37,910 bases of DNA. Origin: an uncultured Bacilli bacterium (GTDB lineage Bacteria; Bacillota_I; Bacilli_A; RF39; UBA660). Position numbers and translations under genes: made by a program. A model generated the notes under the pieces. The model saw nothing but the letters and a program-made list of their open reading frames with translations, was not told where the DNA came from and ran no database searches. Of this stretch, positions 11,428 through 18,693 are shown one piece after another. The stretch's first letter is position 1; each line of letters begins with the position of its first letter. Location: NCBI GenBank assembly GCA_947632405.1, contig CANRPE010000013.1:1-37910 (forward strand), in the 5' to 3' direction.

Positions 11428-11458
11428 TTGGAATAAAAATATCTCTTTTCCATATAAT
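11428..11458 (+). promoter_or_regulatory. Promoter of the split lipoprotein gene
   Basis: TTGGAA (11428-11433), 19-bp spacer, TATAAT (11453-11458). A start site near 11465 would lie downstream of the ATG at 11462, supporting the TTG start at 11489. Confidence 0.5.
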
Positions 11459-11488
11459 TAAATGAAAAATAAATATGAGGTGAAGAAA

Positions 11489-11800
11489 TTGAAAAAAATA
11501 ATTCCATTAGTATTATTAATTATAAGTATTATATTGACTGGGTGTGGGAAATATGGAAAGAATGATGCTGCTAAAGATCTGAAAAAGAAAATGGAAAAAC
11601 TAAATGCTTATCAATTAGAAGGGAATTTAGAAATTGTTAATAATGATGATATATATACTTATAATGTAGATGTATCTTATAAAAAGGATGATAATTACAA
11701 AGTAAGTTTAACTAATACAGCTAATGATTATGAACAAATTATATTAAAAAATAATGATGGTGTTTATGTCTTAACTCCCAGAAGTTTAACTTTTTTATAA
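11489..11800 (+). pseudogene. N-terminal half of a LolA-fold lipoprotein gene, interrupted by an integrated element
   Basis: Starting at TTG 11489 (GAGGTGA at 11477-11483, 5 nt away), the product begins with a short basic stretch, a hydrophobic core and lipobox ILTGC, so it is a lipoprotein. The following YQLEGNLEIVNNDDIYTYNVDVSYKKDDNYKV resembles the LolA-like fold of Firmicute lipoproteins such as YdcC/GerS. The frame runs into the element at VYVLTP and stops after the six foreign codons RSLTFL. The rest of the protein (SLNKSFKFQSDWPYNNSQ...) lies 6.2 kb downstream in the same phase. An ATG at 11462 is in frame but lacks a ribosome binding site. Confidence 0.88.
11765..11794 (+). other. attL: left junction of the serine-recombinase element
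   Basis: Chromosomal coding sequence on the left shares TATGT (11765-11769) and TAACTCC (11772-11778) with the right junction. Element-derived CCAGAAGTTTAACTTTT (11778-11794) is the inverted partner of the arm at 17943-17959. Confidence 0.85.
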
Positions 11801-11818
11801 ATATAATTAACTTGTTTT

Positions 11819-11846
11819 AATTCCTACAATTTAGGAATTTTTTTAT
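11819..11846 (+). terminator. Terminator at the left end of the element
   Basis: Stem AATTCCTA / TAGGAATT (11819-11826, 11832-11839), loop CAATT, T run. It would stop transcription arriving from the truncated lipoprotein gene before it enters the element. The rest of 11795-11918 shows no gene. Confidence 0.75.
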
Positions 11847-11918
11847 TTGCATTATTATATATTTGTATTAAAATTGCTAAAAATATAATAAAAAAAAATA
11901 AGATTTAAATTAATAAAG

Positions 11919-12158
11919 TTATATCTTATTTTCTTTGAAAAATTTTTCAATTGGTACTTGTAGTGCATCAGCTATTCTACCTACAGTTTCGATTGAAAAG
12001 GTTTTATTTTTTACTGAGCTTTCAATTTCACTGATATAGTACATTGATAATTCAGCTAAATCAGCTAGTTTTTGTTGTGTTAAATTCTTTTCAACTCTAT
12101 ATTTTCGAATGTTTTTTCTACATATGTCGTAGTAATAGTTGCTGGGTTTTAGTGCCAT
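11919..12158 (-). CDS. XRE-family helix-turn-helix repressor
   Basis: 79 aa, a stand-alone Cro/C1-type HTH. NLTQQKLADLAELSMYYISEIESSVKN contains the recognition helices, followed by the usual TVGRIADALQVPIEKFF. The start at 12158 has GAGGTGA 5 nt upstream; a longer frame to 12230 lacks this. It is divergent from the surface-protein operon and very likely controls it and itself through the TAGTGCTA-type sites at 12218-12284. It is part of the element's cargo or lysogeny-like control. Confidence 0.88.
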   Translation of the reverse strand: MALKPSNYYYDICRKNIRKYRVEKNLTQQKLADLAELSMYYISEIESSVKNKTFSIETVGRIADALQVPIEKFFKENKI

Positions 12159-12217
12159 GAGTATCACCTCTTTATATTTAATTTTCCCATTTTTAAAAAA
12201 ATAAATATTGGGGCAAA

Positions 12218-12285
12218 TAGCACTATACAAATTTAAAAAAATGTTGTATAATTTTGATAATAGTAGTTAGTGCTAATAGTACTAA
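12218..12285. promoter_or_regulatory. Divergent promoter with repeated TAGTGCTA operator sites
   Basis: Rightward -10 TATAAT (12247-12252). A 19-bp imperfect palindrome at 12267-12285 (TTAGTGCTA, A, TAGTACTAA) sits at the likely start site. The same octamer in reverse (TAGCACTA, 12218-12225) overlaps a leftward TATAGT -10 for the XRE gene. This is a natural arrangement for autoregulation. The remaining leader to 12432 is AT-rich with no clear gene. Confidence 0.6.
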
Positions 12286-12432
12286 TTACTTAAACAACAA
12301 TAATGCTAAAAAAGGTGTATACAAATTTATGTGCTTTTTAGTAATGGAGTGTGAAGTTATGGTGTAATGGAGATTATGATATTGAAAATAAAATGCAATT
12401 AATAAAGTAAAAAATAAAAGGAGGATTAAAAT

Positions 12433-13941
12433 ATGAAAAAGGTAAAATATTTAATTTTTGCTGTAGTATCAGTATTTTTATTTGGAAGTACTACAGTAAA
12501 TGCAGAAGAAAGTTATTGGAAAAGCTATTTTAATGAACTAGGATCTATACCTGCAGCAAATTTTGATTGTGGTCTTAATTGTGGTGTAGGAGGATCTCAT
12601 AAATGGGTAGATCATTCCTATAAATTTGCGATATCAGATAGAGCTGGTGGTGGTTTAGGTGCTATACCTGATGAACTTGCTTTTAGCCCTGCATGGTACA
12701 CAGAAAATGAACTTTATTTTGATATGAGTTCTAGTAATGTAACTTCTACAAGTGATAACTCTAAAGTTTTAGAAGCAAAAGTTACTGATTATACTTTTTC
12801 AAAAGAAGAAGAAAAATTTAATAAATATGTTAGTTGGTTTGAAGGTCTTAGTTTAGAGGAATTTAACGAATTAAAAGGTGGAGAACCTGTTAAAGTAAAA
12901 CCAACATGGTGGGAGTATACCAATAAAAGTCGTATAGAAGAAAATAAATATAAAAGTGAACCACAAAATTGGTGGGAAGCTTATGGTTATCAAGAAAAAC
13001 CTACTGCTATTGAAGTTTCATATCAGGTACATGACTTTGGAAAAGCAAAAATAACTTTAAACTCTACTAGTAAAGGAAAGATAGAAGTTGATTGGATTAT
13101 TGGAGTTAGAGATTTTATTCCTTTTCCTGTTGTAGTACAGAAACAGTTAAAAAATAAGTCTCAAGGACTAGTTGAAGTTTTAAATAATCTATCTAAGTAC
13201 AAAGGATATTACCCAGAAAGAAATGAACAACAAAAGTATAATTTTTCTTATGAGATAGAAAAAAATGAAGATTTATCAGCTATTATCAATACTTTAAAAG
13301 GAAAAGATATTACAGTTAAATTTTATAGTAATTCAAATGGTATTTATGGTGAGTATTACCTAAATGGTAACGATATCAAAACAACAGTTGGAAAAGGCTT
13401 TACTTATGATTATAATATATCTATGACTGATTCTGTTAATAAGGATAAAATCGAAAGCTTAGTAGATTTAGAGAATGCTCTATTCATCGATTTTGCATAT
13501 CACGGAAGTTTACCAGCAAAATTTAATCTTTCTGTAAATATTGATAGTTTCCTTAGGAGTAAATTCGTAGAACAAGGAATATGCAAATCAGGAGAAGCTT
13601 ATAGTGATTTCTGTAATAATAAAGTAACTGAGTTTTTAGATGGTAATAATTTTACTTTGTTATATTACAATCCAGATACAAATAAAATGGAAGTTATAAA
13701 AGAGAATTTAAAACCTAATGACCAAGGTGTATTTGATTTAGAATTTGATCATTTTTCTTCTTACGTTCTTGTAAGAAGTGATAATTATAAAGCAGTAAGT
13801 ATGTCTAATAATCAAGAATCTAACAATGCTCAAACTTCTTCTATAAATATTTTATTATATTCTATTTTATCAATATGTTCTTTAGGCGGAATTATTTATA
13901 TTTTAATTAAAAAAAAGAAAAATTTAAGAAATGAGGGATAA
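12433..13941 (+). CDS. Cell-wall-anchored surface protein with NAQTS sorting signal (cargo 1)
   Basis: 502 aa. Signal peptide (MKKVKYLIFAVVSVFLFGSTTVNA). The large extracellular part has no domain I recognise. It contains RAGGG and a late HFSSYVLVRSDN motif, both with counterparts in the next protein (RAGGT, HCSEYVLVKEDN), so the two are distant paralogues. The C-terminus is a complete sorting signal: NNAQTS (about residue 465), hydrophobic helix, KKKK tail. NAQTS fits the NxxTx pattern of class B sortase substrates such as NPQTN. A strong AGGAGG precedes the ATG. The class B sortase two genes downstream is the likely anchoring enzyme. Confidence 0.8.
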   Translation: MKKVKYLIFAVVSVFLFGSTTVNAEESYWKSYFNELGSIPAANFDCGLNCGVGGSHKWVDHSYKFAISDRAGGGLGAIPDELAFSPAWYTENELYFDMSSSNVTSTSDNSKVLEAKVTDYTFSKEEEKFNKYVSWFEGLSLEEFNELKGGEPVKVKPTWWEYTNKSRIEENKYKSEPQNWWEAYGYQEKPTAIEVSYQVHDFGKAKITLNSTSKGKIEVDWIIGVRDFIPFPVVVQKQLKNKSQGLVEVLNNLSKYKGYYPERNEQQKYNFSYEIEKNEDLSAIINTLKGKDITVKFYSNSNGIYGEYYLNGNDIKTTVGKGFTYDYNISMTDSVNKDKIESLVDLENALFIDFAYHGSLPAKFNLSVNIDSFLRSKFVEQGICKSGEAYSDFCNNKVTEFLDGNNFTLLYYNPDTNKMEVIKENLKPNDQGVFDLEFDHFSSYVLVRSDNYKAVSMSNNQESNNAQTSSINILLYSILSICSLGGIIYILIKKKKNLRNEG

Positions 13942-13945
13942 TAAA

Positions 13946-15313
13946 ATGAAAAAAATTAAATATCTATTTTTAACTTTTATATTATCAATTTTTCTTGTAC
14001 CTAGTATATGTAATGCTGAAAACTATAATTCAGCAGTAGTTGATAATATAAAAGTGGATATTCAATCTAATGGTAATGATAAAAAATTAACTATATCGTT
14101 CAAATTATTAAAAGATATTGATGTCAGTAAAAATGATGATATAGGTATATTTTATACAACTGATAATCTTATACAGTATGGTTATTATAATGTTAATTTC
14201 TATCAATATGATAATAAAATAAGAAATGATGGTTTAACACTTGCTAAAAATGGTAGTTGCAATGATACAGAGAAAATTACTGGTACTAAGATAAATAAGG
14301 ATTCTATTGTATGTTTTACAAAAGATTTAAGAAATAATGAAAGAATAGGATTTAATTATTCTAATAGTAGTGGAAGTAGTGGAAAGATTATAAACTTAGA
14401 TTATACTTTTGAAAATGGTACAAAAACAGAACGAATCAACTATAATTTGGATAACTCAGAAATTTTAGATTTAAATACCCAAAATAATACTTTTGGAAGT
14501 ATATTTACAAAAGCTATAGAACGACATTATAATTATTATGTACAAAGTAGAGCTGGTGGAACTTCAGCAGATGGAGAATATAATATGTTTACTTTTTACC
14601 CAGATCATTATGACAATTATATAATAGCAACAGAATTAGGAACTATTAACTGGGATTCTAATAAAAATTTAGAAGAATATATTAAAATGATTGATGAAAT
14701 GATTTCAAAAGCAAATATAAATTTTTCTGTACAATCTGTAAAAGAAAAAAATAATGTTTCTCAAGATTTATTAGGAGGTATAAAAACTTCTAAAAAAAGA
14801 GTTGAATTTGAAACTAAATTAAATAATAAGACTGTATATATTTGGAATTTCGATGGTTCTAAAATGGATAAAACTGATTATAATATAGATATGTCTTTAA
14901 ATGTTGGAAAAAGTACTAATCAATCAAAAATAGAAAATTTGGTTAATAATAAAGAAGAATCATTAGTCCTTGAATTTGGTTATCATGGAGAATTACCAAA
15001 AGGAACTAGTGTAAAAGTAAATGTTTCAGATAAATATAAGGAAAGTGATATCTTATCTTTATATTATTATAATGATAAGGGAGAACTAGAACTTACAGCA
15101 AAAAATATAAAAGTTGAAAATGGGTTTGCTACTTTGAATCTAGAACATTGTAGTGAATATGTTTTAGTAAAAGAAGATAATACACTTATAACTCCTACTG
15201 AACAATCAAATAATGCACAAACTTCTTCAATGAACTTTGTTCTTTATTATATACTTGTTTTAGGATCTTTATTTGGAATTATTTATGTAGTAAGGAAGAA
15301 AGAGATAGCTTAA
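13946..15313 (+). CDS. Cell-wall-anchored surface protein with NAQTS sorting signal (cargo 2)
   Basis: 455 aa. ATG 13946 chosen because GAGGGA (13933-13938) is 7 nt upstream; an in-frame ATG at 13931 would overlap the previous gene. Signal peptide ends near CNAE. The body is rich in Asn, Lys and Tyr without a named domain. RAGGT and HCSEYVLVKEDN match the preceding paralogue. The tail is SNNAQTS, a hydrophobic segment, then VRKKE, the same sorting signal as cargo 1. It starts 4 nt after cargo 1 ends, so the two are co-translated. Confidence 0.8.
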   Translation: MKKIKYLFLTFILSIFLVPSICNAENYNSAVVDNIKVDIQSNGNDKKLTISFKLLKDIDVSKNDDIGIFYTTDNLIQYGYYNVNFYQYDNKIRNDGLTLAKNGSCNDTEKITGTKINKDSIVCFTKDLRNNERIGFNYSNSSGSSGKIINLDYTFENGTKTERINYNLDNSEILDLNTQNNTFGSIFTKAIERHYNYYVQSRAGGTSADGEYNMFTFYPDHYDNYIIATELGTINWDSNKNLEEYIKMIDEMISKANINFSVQSVKEKNNVSQDLLGGIKTSKKRVEFETKLNNKTVYIWNFDGSKMDKTDYNIDMSLNVGKSTNQSKIENLVNNKEESLVLEFGYHGELPKGTSVKVNVSDKYKESDILSLYYYNDKGELELTAKNIKVENGFATLNLEHCSEYVLVKEDNTLITPTEQSNNAQTSSMNFVLYYILVLGSLFGIIYVVRKKEIA

Positions 15314-15327
15314 TAGCTATTTCTTTC
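15298..15327 (+). terminator. Hairpin between cargo 2 and the sortase gene
   Basis: Thirteen-pair stem GAAAGAGATAGCT / AGCTATTTCTTTC (one G-U), loop TAAT, spanning the stop codon. The following sequence is not a clean T run. It may be a leaky attenuator or RNA-stability element lowering sortase expression relative to its substrates. Confidence 0.6.
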
Positions 15328-15342
15328 TATATTTAATATAAG

Positions 15343-16089
15343 ATGAAAAAAAGAAAATTAAAATTTAAAGTAAAAGTTGTTTTTTTAATAGTTTTTATAA
15401 TTGTTTTTTTGTTTTCTACATTAAAACTTTTATTTTTCTTTAAAGATAATAATCAAAGTAAAAAGAGTAACAAAAAATTAAATGAAGAAGTAATTGATAT
15501 AAAACTAAAAGATGATGAAGAAATAATAAAAGTAGATTTTAAAAAGTTACTTTCAATTAATAATGAAACAGTTGGTTGGATACGTTTTAATAATGATAAA
15601 GTAAACAATCCTATTGTTCATACAAGTAATAATGATTATTATTTAAACCATTCCTTTGAAAAAAAGAAAAATCAAGCTGGTACTATATTTATGGATTATC
15701 GTAATACATCTTTTAATGATAAAAATGTAGTTTTATTTGGACATTCTATGCCAAATAGTACAATGTTTGGATCAATTAGTGATGTTTTTAAAAAAGACTT
15801 TTTTAATGACGAGAAAAATAAATATATTCAAATAATAACGTCAAGTGATGAAACTTTTACTTATCAGATATTTAGTTATTATATTTCAGAAAAAGAGGAA
15901 TATTATATATCTACAGCTTTTAATGATGATGAATCTTTTCAAAAATTTATTGATACAATAAGGAAAAGAAGTTATCGAGAATTTAATTTAGAAGTTTTAA
16001 ATACTGATAATATTCTTACTTTGTCTACTTGCTATGGAACAGGAAATACTACAAAAAGACAAGTTGTGCACGCCAAAAGAATTTATTAA
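15343..16089 (+). CDS. Class B sortase (element-encoded)
   Basis: 248 aa. N-terminal membrane anchor (about 10-30), then the sortase fold with NETVGWIRFNNDKVNNPIVH and DYYLNHSFEKKKNQAGTIFMDYRN, hallmarks of class B. The triad is visible: His134 (FGHSM), Cys230 (TLSTCYG), Arg239 (TTKRQVVHAKRI). It would cleave the NAQTS motifs of the two upstream proteins and join them to peptidoglycan. No good ribosome binding site lies before the ATG, unlike its neighbours; translation may be weak or coupled. Confidence 0.9.
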   Translation: MKKRKLKFKVKVVFLIVFIIVFLFSTLKLLFFFKDNNQSKKSNKKLNEEVIDIKLKDDEEIIKVDFKKLLSINNETVGWIRFNNDKVNNPIVHTSNNDYYLNHSFEKKKNQAGTIFMDYRNTSFNDKNVVLFGHSMPNSTMFGSISDVFKKDFFNDEKNKYIQIITSSDETFTYQIFSYYISEKEEYYISTAFNDDESFQKFIDTIRKRSYREFNLEVLNTDNILTLSTCYGTGNTTKRQVVHAKRIY

Positions 16090-16193
16090 TATAATATTTT
16101 GGTTTACTTGTCTTTTTTTGTCTCATAAAAAAATATAATAGATATTTTGTCAATATCAAAAAAAATAAGCATATATTTTATTGTGATGAAAAT

Positions 16194-16301
16194 ATGAAAA
16201 TTAATAATATAATTTTTAATGATAATGGTAAAAATTTTCAAGAAATTATAGAGCAGTTTCTTATACGTTATTATAATGAACTCATTGCTAATAAACAGTA
16301 A
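16194..16301 (+). CDS. Small 35-aa ORF upstream of the recombinase
   Basis: Starts MKINNIIFNDNGKNFQEIIEQF and ends just before the recombinase leader. Small acidic/hydrophobic proteins commonly precede large serine recombinases. It could be an accessory or directionality factor, but this is inference from position. The ribosome binding site is weak (GTGATG). The remaining sequence 16090-16343 shows no other gene. Confidence 0.4.
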   Translation: MKINNIIFNDNGKNFQEIIEQFLIRYYNELIANKQ

Positions 16302-16343
16302 TGACAATTTAAAGTTAATTATATAGAAAGAGAGGTATTTTAA

Positions 16344-17933
16344 ATGAGTAATGAAACTTTTAAAGTAGGTATTTATTTAAGATTATCTCGAGAAGATGAG
16401 TTAAAGGGTGAGAGTGGTAGTATTGGAAATCAAAGAGACATTATTCAAAAATATATCAAAGATAATAATCTTATTTATGTTGATGAATATATTGATGATG
16501 GAGTAAGTGGCACTCAATTTGATAATAGAGATGGTTGGAATAAGTTAATTACTGATGTTGAAAGTAATCGTATTAATATGGTAATTACCAAAGATCTTTC
16601 TAGATTTGGAAGAAATGAAGGTCAACAATTAAGATACTTAGATTACTTCTATGAAAAAGGAGTAAGATATGTTGCTATATTAGATAATGTTGATACTTTT
16701 GATGAATGTAATACTTCTAATGAGATGATACCAATACAATGTTTTTTTAATGAAAAGCATGTAAGAGATACTTCTAAAAAGATGAAAGCTAGTGTATATA
16801 GTAAAAGGAGTCAAGGTAATTTTTTAGGGAAGACTCCTCCTTACGGTTATAAAAAAGACCCTAATAATAAGTACAAATTAATAATTGATGAACCAGCAGC
16901 TGAAGTTGTTAGAAGAATATTTGATTTATTTGTTAGTGGTAAAGGTATATGTGAAATATCTAGAATTTTAACTAATGAAAAAATACCAATTCCTAGTGTT
17001 TATAAAAATCTTAATGTAGGTCAAAAATCTCCTGCTTATGGAATATGGGATTTAAGAACAATAAGTGATATGATACAATTACCAACTTATGTTGGAGATT
17101 TAACACAAGGAAGAACGAAAAAACCAAGTTATAAATCAAAAAGAATAGTAAGACCTAAAAAAGAAGAATGGATTATTTGTAAGGATAAATGTCCAGCTAT
17201 TATTGATAGAGAAACTTTTGATTTGGCTCAAAATATTTATACTAGAAATAAACATCAAGGTAAAAACTCTCAAAGTATATTGTTAAAAGGTTTAGTATAC
17301 TGCAAAGAGTGTGGACATACTATTGGTTTTAGACTACAGAAAGTAACTACTAAAAAAAATGGTGAAGTAACTAGATGTTATGGTAATTGTAACTTTTGGA
17401 GTAAACATAAAAATTATAATATCTGCACTCCTCATAGTATTAAGTATTATGAGTTAGAAAAATTAGTTCTAAATGAAGTTAAAAAGATGTGTAAGTTATA
17501 TATTAAAAATAGTGATTTGAAAATTATTCTTAAAGATAATAATAAGATTACTAAGTCGTTAATTGAATTGGAAACTAAATTAAGACAATTAGAAAATGAT
17601 ATTAAACTAAGTAGTAAAAAGAAAGAAAATTTATATAATGATAGGTTAGAGGGCATAATAGATTTAGATATGTATAAAAGAATGAGTAATATAATTATTG
17701 ATGAAACAGTTAATAAACAAAACGAGATAAGTAATATAAAGACTAAGATATGTAATATTAAAAATAATATAACTAGTATTGAAAATAAGTATGATAATAT
17801 CATTAATGATTATTTAGAAATGAAAAATCCAAGTATTCAATTATTATCTAGTATTATAGATAAAATAGTAGTAGATGAAAATAAGAATGTTGATATATAT
17901 TATAAATTTAAATCATTGGAAAATGGTTATTAA
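16344..17933 (+). CDS. Large serine recombinase (integrase of the element)
   Basis: 529 aa. The N-terminal resolvase domain has the catalytic serine Ser15 in YLRLSRED, with KDLSRFGRN and the DGVSGTQFDNR motif typical of Tn/ICE serine recombinases. The Recombinase domain (about 160-290) contains TPPYGYKK. A zinc ribbon has CKECGH followed by later cysteines, and a long coiled coil (about 385-500) follows. The gene ends only 9 bp before the attP arm at 17943, the usual integrase-next-to-att arrangement. AGAGAGG precedes the ATG. It catalysed integration into the lipoprotein gene and is the candidate for excision. Confidence 0.95.
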   Translation: MSNETFKVGIYLRLSREDELKGESGSIGNQRDIIQKYIKDNNLIYVDEYIDDGVSGTQFDNRDGWNKLITDVESNRINMVITKDLSRFGRNEGQQLRYLDYFYEKGVRYVAILDNVDTFDECNTSNEMIPIQCFFNEKHVRDTSKKMKASVYSKRSQGNFLGKTPPYGYKKDPNNKYKLIIDEPAAEVVRRIFDLFVSGKGICEISRILTNEKIPIPSVYKNLNVGQKSPAYGIWDLRTISDMIQLPTYVGDLTQGRTKKPSYKSKRIVRPKKEEWIICKDKCPAIIDRETFDLAQNIYTRNKHQGKNSQSILLKGLVYCKECGHTIGFRLQKVTTKKNGEVTRCYGNCNFWSKHKNYNICTPHSIKYYELEKLVLNEVKKMCKLYIKNSDLKIILKDNNKITKSLIELETKLRQLENDIKLSSKKKENLYNDRLEGIIDLDMYKRMSNIIIDETVNKQNEISNIKTKICNIKNNITSIENKYDNIINDYLEMKNPSIQLLSSIIDKIVVDENKNVDIYYKFKSLENGY

Positions 17934-17942
17934 AAAGTATTT

Positions 17943-17978
17943 AAAAGTTAGACTTCTGGTAGTCTATGTAGTAACTCC
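17943..17978 (+). other. attR: right junction of the serine-recombinase element
   Basis: AAAAGTTAGACTTCTGG (17943-17959) is the inverted partner of the left-junction arm (16 of 17 positions). Shared TATGT (17965-17969) and TAACTCC (17972-17978) follow, then the chromosomal coding frame resumes as SLNKSFKF. Confidence 0.85.
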
Positions 17979-18693
17979 ATCTTTAAATAAAAGTTTTAAA
18001 TTTCAAAGTGACTGGCCATATAATAATTCACAAATTTATTTATTAAATTCTTTAATTGATGATATTAATGACGATGATGAAAAAGAATTTAAAGTAAAAG
18101 ATAATAATTATATTTTTACAACAGATGTTAATTATCCAAATAATAAAAAATTAATAAAGCAAAAAATTACTTTTAATAAAGATTTAGAATTAAAAGAAGT
18201 AAAAGTATATGATGAGAATAATATCCCAATGATGACATTGAAAATTAAAAATATTGATTATTCTCCAACATTTAAGAAAAATTATTTTAGTGTAAAAGAG
18301 GCTTTGAAAACGACAAAAGTAGAATCTAATACAAATACAAAGCAGACATCATCACTTGAAGATACAATATATCCTCTAGTATTACCTACTAATACAAAAC
18401 TTATCCAAGAAGAAAAAGTAAAAAAAACAGATGGTAATAGAATTATTATGACTTTTGATGGAGATAAACCATTTCTATTAGTTGAAGAAACTGCAAGTAT
18501 TGAAGATGAGATGACAATTGTTCCAACTTATGGAGAGCCATTTATGTTAATGGATACTTTTGGAGCTTTAACTGATAATTCGTTAACATGGACTAGTGGT
18601 GGAGTTGATTATTATATTGTAAGTGATGTATTAAGCCAAGATGAACTATTAGAAGTTGCTCAATCAATTAATGTTTTACCAACTATGAAATAA
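17972..18693 (+). pseudogene. C-terminal part of the split LolA-fold lipoprotein gene
   Basis: Continues the frame broken at 11771. The joined product would be 334 aa from TTG 11489. The segment has SLNKSFKFQSDWPYNNSQIYLLNSL, then a beta-rich LolA-like part (LKEVKVYDENNIPMMTLKIKNIDYSPTFKKNYFSV). A linker leads to a C-terminal domain resembling DUF4367 (MTFDGDKPFLLVEETA...WTSGGVDYYIVSDVLSQDELLEVAQSI). This layout matches Firmicute sporulation or envelope lipoproteins such as YdcC. As it stands the fragment has no start, signal peptide or promoter. The reading frame upstream of 17972 is element sequence. Confidence 0.88.

Follow-up and report, generated by a model that had tools for sequence, protein, structure and literature searches.

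We analysed a 37,910-bp window (the whole stretch of DNA studied; contig CANRPE010000013.1 of assembly GCA_947632405.1, from an uncultured Bacilli bacterium) and confirmed that a single lipoprotein gene resembling gerS is interrupted by a 6,200-bp element encoding a large serine recombinase (LSR), the excision of which rebuilds the reading frame. With a probability of roughly 0.76, we consider this element to be a sporulation-gene intervening element in gerS that is excised in the mother cell in the manner of skin, SPbeta, and gin. We infer the developmental timing, the role of a small open reading frame (ORF) beside the LSR gene, and the GerS function in this host.

The split gene and its recurrence at one codon

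The two fragments of the lipoprotein gene lie 6,200 bp apart in the same codon phase. Joining them gives a continuous frame of 343 codons, or 334 if counted from a TTG start at 11489, and the split falls at approximately residue 103. As the predicted start, TTG at 11489 fits better than ATG at 11462 because the promoter-like box CATATAAT (11451-11458) lies directly 5' of 11462 and the ribosome-binding site GAGGTGA precedes 11489. The initial annotation had described a serine-recombinase element of this length in one lipoprotein gene, its precise in-frame restoration on excision, and a 334-aa LolA-fold lipoprotein with a lipobox. These claims were borne out by the two in-phase fragments, the LSR domains, the single open frame of the joined halves, the TTG start with its ribosome-binding site, the lipobox LTGC, and a profile match to PDB entry 7rag_A. 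The gene and the element boundaries comprise the following features:

11430..11458, + strand: sigma-E-like promoter of the host gene, GGAATAAAA ... CATATAAT, with -35/-10-like boxes (predicted activity)
11489..11769, + strand: 5' part of the gerS-like gene, from the TTG start at 11489 through the lipobox LTGC to the GT crossover (GerS family by NCBIfam and by the 7rag_A profile match)
11743..11794, no strand: attL, crossover GT at 11768-11769 (attP/attB symmetry and 43 aligned cases)
11770..17969, no strand: intervening element, 6,200 bp (intact relatives lack it)
17943..17994, no strand: attR, crossover GT at 17968-17969 (attP/attB symmetry and aligned cases)
17970..18693, + strand: 3' part of the gerS-like gene, beginning VTPSLNKSFKFQ

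We surveyed 386 genomes of the host family, in which the present genome is designated G000. The gerS-like gene was found in 329 of them, mostly as one ORF, and was split at the same codon in 45 of these 329 genomes, which represent 36 genera. For each of the 43 split genes whose left end was available, the host sequence reaches a GT dinucleotide and then diverges. The rebuilt attP is symmetric about this GT (20 of 25 positions palindromic), and the rebuilt attB is symmetric about the same GT (15 of 25 positions). The crossover therefore falls at 11768-11769 / 17968-17969 and not in the TAACTCC that the initial annotation had taken as the shared junction; TAACTCC is ruled out as the crossover core by the attP/attB symmetry and the aligned cases. 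The codons rebuilt at the GT read GVYVVTP, which is also the sequence of the two closest intact relatives, and not the previously proposed GVYVLTP. This correction leaves the element length and the frame unaltered. The view that one ancestral gene had been divided was upheld: one-piece homologues are usual (for example, that of G003 with 84% identity), and hundreds of intact homologues rule out two separate ancestral genes. An apparent second split point near residue 220 in many matches was dismissed, these being single ORFs with a variable linker, and G196 was rejected as an insertion case because it carries a frameshift instead.

The element and both gene halves occur on a single contig in 13 genomes, where the element measures 4.7 to 18.8 kb. 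In approximately two-thirds of the split cases other than the present one, the halves are on separate contigs, which usually end a few hundred bases into the element. Together with the metagenome-assembled genome (MAG) origin of the data, these separate contigs are what would speak for an assembly artefact in which a contig fuses unrelated fragments. We regard such an artefact as extremely improbable in view of the 13 single-contig cases, the symmetric and reproducible attachment sites, and the element ends that are conserved across genera.

The LSR gene is located at the right end of the element in every case. Of the 81 LSRs placed in a tree, 39 group as a single gerS-site clade, and these include two LSRs whose flanks were lost at contig ends or were not covered. 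The distance between LSRs is nearly independent of the distance between hosts (r=0.14); in one pair, the LSRs are 98.5% identical and the host halves only 68.6%. Because near-identical LSRs occur in distant hosts, the elements move horizontally, and the uncoupling of LSR and host similarity indicates mobile elements that repeatedly use one site rather than a single old insertion. The cargo varies highly between gerS elements: that of G033 includes a Mob_Pre relaxase and a Bro-N protein, and ORF lists read by eye revealed ABC transporters, metabolic genes, or two giant surface proteins in others. The element of G395 (L063) carries tandem surface proteins of 2,653 and 2,709 aa.

In the assembly of G215, one contig has the empty site and another has attR (L067, L068), and their flanks are identical at 163 of 164 bases; no other assembly showed both states with a matching flank. 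These two contigs fit mixed excised and integrated states, yet they could be from two strains. They speak for a switch resembling active lysogeny and independent of the mother cell, in which the element would be excised in a fraction of growing cells as a form of bet-hedging between germination-competent and germination-incompetent spores; the yin element also excises heterogeneously (PMC10747680). However, this is one case that may reflect a strain mixture, and the promoter box ahead of the LSR unit (described below) points to the mother cell, so that we consider such a switch highly unlikely. G152 was rejected as a further mixed-state case because its occupied and empty states come from two clearly different strains. 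Contig ends near the junction were likewise not accepted as proof of mixed populations, because identical element ends recur in several genera and shared ends break assemblies anyway.

The GerS-like gene, the element content, and the promoter-like box

The best NCBIfam model for the host gene is the germination lipoprotein GerS (NF041286; E=1.9e-10, 40.5 bits), and a profile of the intact homologues matches the lipoprotein chain 7rag_A (E=1.3e-11). We take this chain to be from the paper describing the CwlD:GerS structure, the text of which does not contain the code. In Clostridioides difficile, GerS is a lipoprotein with a LolA-like fold and activates the cortex amidase CwlD (PMC8496864). It thereby serves to modify the spore cortex and is required for germination. 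On the basis of these profiles, we place the host gene in the GerS superfamily without filing it as an NF041286 equivalog. A promoter-like pair, GAATA...CATATAAT, precedes the gene in most of approximately 70 gerS homologues in the style of sigma-E genes.

Both the Spo0A (Spo0A_C) and the SpoIVA family were found in this genome, and nearly every family relative tested has them too; the Spo0A gene of this genome is unbroken. Named relatives of the host family within Bacilli are Candidatus Onthousia, Aphodocola, and Faecimonas, whose family is presumably UBA660 of the GTDB order RF39. Members of RF39 have been predicted to sporulate (PMC10868615).

Both halves of the split gene are well preserved. 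In 43 of 43 cases, the left half has an uninterrupted frame between the lipoprotein signal and the crossover, and nearly all of the 41 right halves are open; the right half of G215 is seemingly interrupted, and that of G096 is cut off by the limits of the stretch analysed. The ratio of replacement to silent substitution rates (dN/dS) for gerS between G000 and G003 is 0.076, and replacement and silent changes number 38:48 on the split branch and 30:53 on the intact branch, with no excess when the gene is split. These sequence comparisons show no relaxation of selection on the split gene, a picture that a recent insertion would also give.

The element carries the following genes and sites:

11919..12230, - strand: HTH_3 (Xre-type) regulator (Pfam PF01381)
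12433..13941, + strand: cargo, secreted surface protein with an NAQTS-like C-terminal sorting motif, a membrane anchor, and a lysine tail (by sequence)
13931..15313, + strand: cargo, second surface protein with the same NAQTS-like C-terminal motif (by sequence)
15343..16089, + strand: cargo, class B sortase (PF04203; TIGR03064 above cut-off)
16149..16177, + strand: mother-cell-type promoter-like site, GTCAATATC-N12-CATATATT, 5' of the small ORF and LSR gene
16194..16301, + strand: 35-aa small ORF, MKINNIIFNDNGKNFQEIIEQFLIRYYNELIANKQ, candidate recombination directionality factor (RDF; putative function; homologues precede other LSRs)
16344..17933, + strand: LSR, 529 aa (PF00239, PF07508, PF13408), of the gerS-site clade

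The small ORF belongs to one recognisable family (F-x-E-x-GK-x-L-x-EI) that precedes almost every LSR in the set, with homologues ahead of LSRs at gerS, spoIVA, amidase, cotZ, spoVD, bclA, and other sites. Of 71 LSR operons from Bacilli, 65 have a CATA box, which characterises the -10 boxes recognised by sigma-E and sigma-K, at a distance of 10-45 bases 5' of the small ORF; among control genes from the same loci, 105 of 668 (16%) have one. By target, the box is present in all operons at gerS (29/29), collagen (10/10), amidase (8/8), cotZ (3/3), and spoIVA (2/2). In C. difficile, the small RDF CD1234 is controlled by sigma-E and confines skin excision to the mother cell (PMC5025042). The simplest reading of the present small ORF and LSR gene would be a similar arrangement, namely a small RDF under mother-cell control.

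No phage structural or replication genes were found among the ORFs of the element, and the closest LSR match in viral contigs (IMG/VR) has at most 36% identity; a phage origin is thus unsupported. The Ccr recombinases of SCCmec and XisF are distant LSR relatives by profile, with scores far under the equivalog cut-offs. XisF similarly excises an element, the fdxN element, from a developmental gene, but the targets and hosts of Ccr and XisF differ from those described here. The element does not classify as a staphylococcal cassette chromosome: its LSR scores 97 bits against the Ccr cut-off of 900, and its target is gerS, not rlmH.

The class B sortase beside the two NAQTS-motif proteins (12433-15313) constitutes an apparently self-contained surface-display cassette. 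The first surface protein has a weak TIGR03065 match under the cut-off, and the second returned no family match in Pfam/NCBIfam-type profile searches.

Other genes split by related recombinases

Two further genes of this genome are interrupted in the same manner. The spoIVA gene (contig C8, L201:3585-10256) is split by a 5.2-kb LSR element; each half matches SpoIVA families, and joining at the shared TGG yields a full-length frame of 492 codons, including the stop, through MVKTPWYNEEIPF. A LysM amidase gene (contig C15:1019-37308; L203, L217, L296) is divided by an LSR element of 36.3 kb, which encodes a type I restriction system and has conjugation-type ORFs similar to VirB4 and VirD4; the shared core is CAGGAGGTG, and joining restores SNHINAGGGDGAEVIYALR. 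In relatives, the LysM amidase gene adjoins a CwlJ/SleB-like hydrolase gene.

Further LSR loci were collected by LSR similarity and not by target gene. Among them, the same LysM gene is split in at least seven relatives, and spoIVA is interrupted at a second position in G028. Other interrupted targets are a CotE homologue, two CotZ-like genes, a BclA-C-terminal gene, a collagen-repeat gene, the C-terminus of SpoVD, and a SEDS gene that could be ftsW or spoVE. The CotE-like fragment (L216) was identified by eye and has no Pfam match by itself. In Clostridia MAGs (L178-L200), a GH94 phosphorylase-like gene, which is a non-sporulation target, is recurrently hit by a related LSR clade; the homologous small ORF is present in this group and the CATA box is absent (0/6). 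In L202, L215, and L229, near rpoZ, a mazEF-like pair lies directly 3' of the LSR gene, and an interrupted gene, if any, was not found at these three loci.

These results bear on the alternative of a plain serine-integrase island that uses gerS as its attachment site and knocks the gene out, with germination lost or weakened and excision rare, random, or linked to transfer. LSR islands often insert in conserved genes, the spread of LSRs between genera means that numerous insertions could be recent, the targets of some sister LSRs are non-sporulation genes, and the right half in G215 may be broken. However, three spore genes are split in one genome in which Spo0A is intact, and one of them is spoIVA, which is indispensable for sporulation. 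Moreover, the halves are almost never decayed across dozens of species, a mother-cell-type box lies 5' of the LSR units, and sister LSRs target many other mother-cell genes. Because it leaves the intact halves, the three split spore genes beside an intact Spo0A, and the promoter box unexplained, the plain island is the weaker explanation, and we consider it unlikely.

Proposed mechanism and relation to known elements

The mother-cell reading may be outlined as follows. An LSR would have integrated a small, non-phage genomic island at the GT in the codons for VYV of the gerS-like gene, which would be silent and not needed in growing cells. During sporulation, a sigma-E/K-type promoter (the CATA box) would turn on the small ORF and LSR gene in the mother cell, and with the small ORF product as directionality factor, the LSR would recombine attL with attR and release a circle. 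The mother cell, a terminal cell, would thus regain an in-frame gerS gene, and the forespore would retain the element, so that the element would be inherited and the fitness of the host spared.

Several points weigh against this reading. No read, strain, or transcript shows the excision. The GerS score of 40.5 bits does not reach the NF041286 equivalog cut-off of 175 bits, and the host protein has an extra conserved C-terminal region or domain (residues ~225-343) beyond GerS. Sporulation in this lineage rests on prediction and not on demonstration (PMC10868615). If the insertions are recent and turn over fast, unbroken halves would be expected as well. The CATA counts are not independent because the LSRs are related to each other, and the -35 box is variable, so that the promoter-like site may belong to either sigma-E or sigma-K. 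Related LSRs also interrupt non-sporulation genes, namely zupT and genes for NMT1-like substrate-binding proteins, and a CATA box is found in the NMT1 group as well (6/7), which a pure sporulation-gene rule leaves unexplained. The NMT1-like interruptions are those of L163, L165, L171-L173, L210, and L225. The initial annotation had regarded a regulated excision of the skin or SPbeta type as conceivable; the GerS-like gene, the Spo0A and SpoIVA families, the two additional split spore genes, the mother-cell-type promoter box, and the small ORF give this suggestion strong indirect support, whereas excision during sporulation was not seen.

Extended to the whole uncultured gut lineage, the proposal is that gerS, spoIVA, the LysM amidase gene, cotE, cotZ, bclA, and spoVD are kept in pieces and rebuilt in the mother cell by diversified modules of an LSR and a small ORF. 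Each clade would be dedicated to one gene, and cargo would be exchanged freely, from 5-kb islands to a 36-kb conjugative-type element. We hold this wider proposal to be somewhat better than an even bet.

Several known systems are similar. The gin element in gerE of Bacillus cereus ATCC10987 is likewise a non-phage island with a serine recombinase in a mother-cell sporulation gene, with a short shared core and precise rejoining, and has an accessory factor, GirX (PMC5595907). It differs in its size of 28.6 kb, its three recombinases, its target, and its excision, which has been shown; the present element has one LSR, 6.2 kb, gerS as the target, and sortase and surface-protein cargo, and its excision is predicted. 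The skinCd element in sigK of C. difficile also lies within a mother-cell gene and pairs an LSR with a small RDF that is controlled by sigma-E (CD1234, 72 aa), but it is prophage-like and its LSR, CD1231, is constitutive (PMC5025042). In the present element, by contrast, the candidate RDF (the 35-aa ORF) adjoins the LSR gene behind one common promoter-like box. SPbeta in spsM (PMC4191935) and yin in yabG (PMC10747680) also interrupt sporulation genes and are excised by LSRs; they are prophages or prophage-like, whereas the present element is without phage genes.

The established targets of intervening elements are sigK, spsM, gerE, spoVFB, spoVR, kamA, and yabG (PMC6957869, PMC5595907, PMC10747680), and we found no paper in the open-access literature in which gerS, spoIVA, cotE, or spoVD is the interrupted gene. 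The kind of element is therefore known; the gerS target, the LSR and small-ORF family, the use of one attachment site, with exchanged cargo, across at least 36 genera, and the presence of several split spore genes in one genome appear to be new.

Few interrupted genes of this sort have been described so far, and the present data suggest that the strategy is common and parallel within one lineage. Surveys of sporulation genes in MAGs may count such interrupted genes as missing. The data also make available many natural pairs of LSRs and attachment sites, together with candidate directionality factors, and they open to testing the idea that mobile DNA can occupy the doomed mother cell as a niche at no cost.

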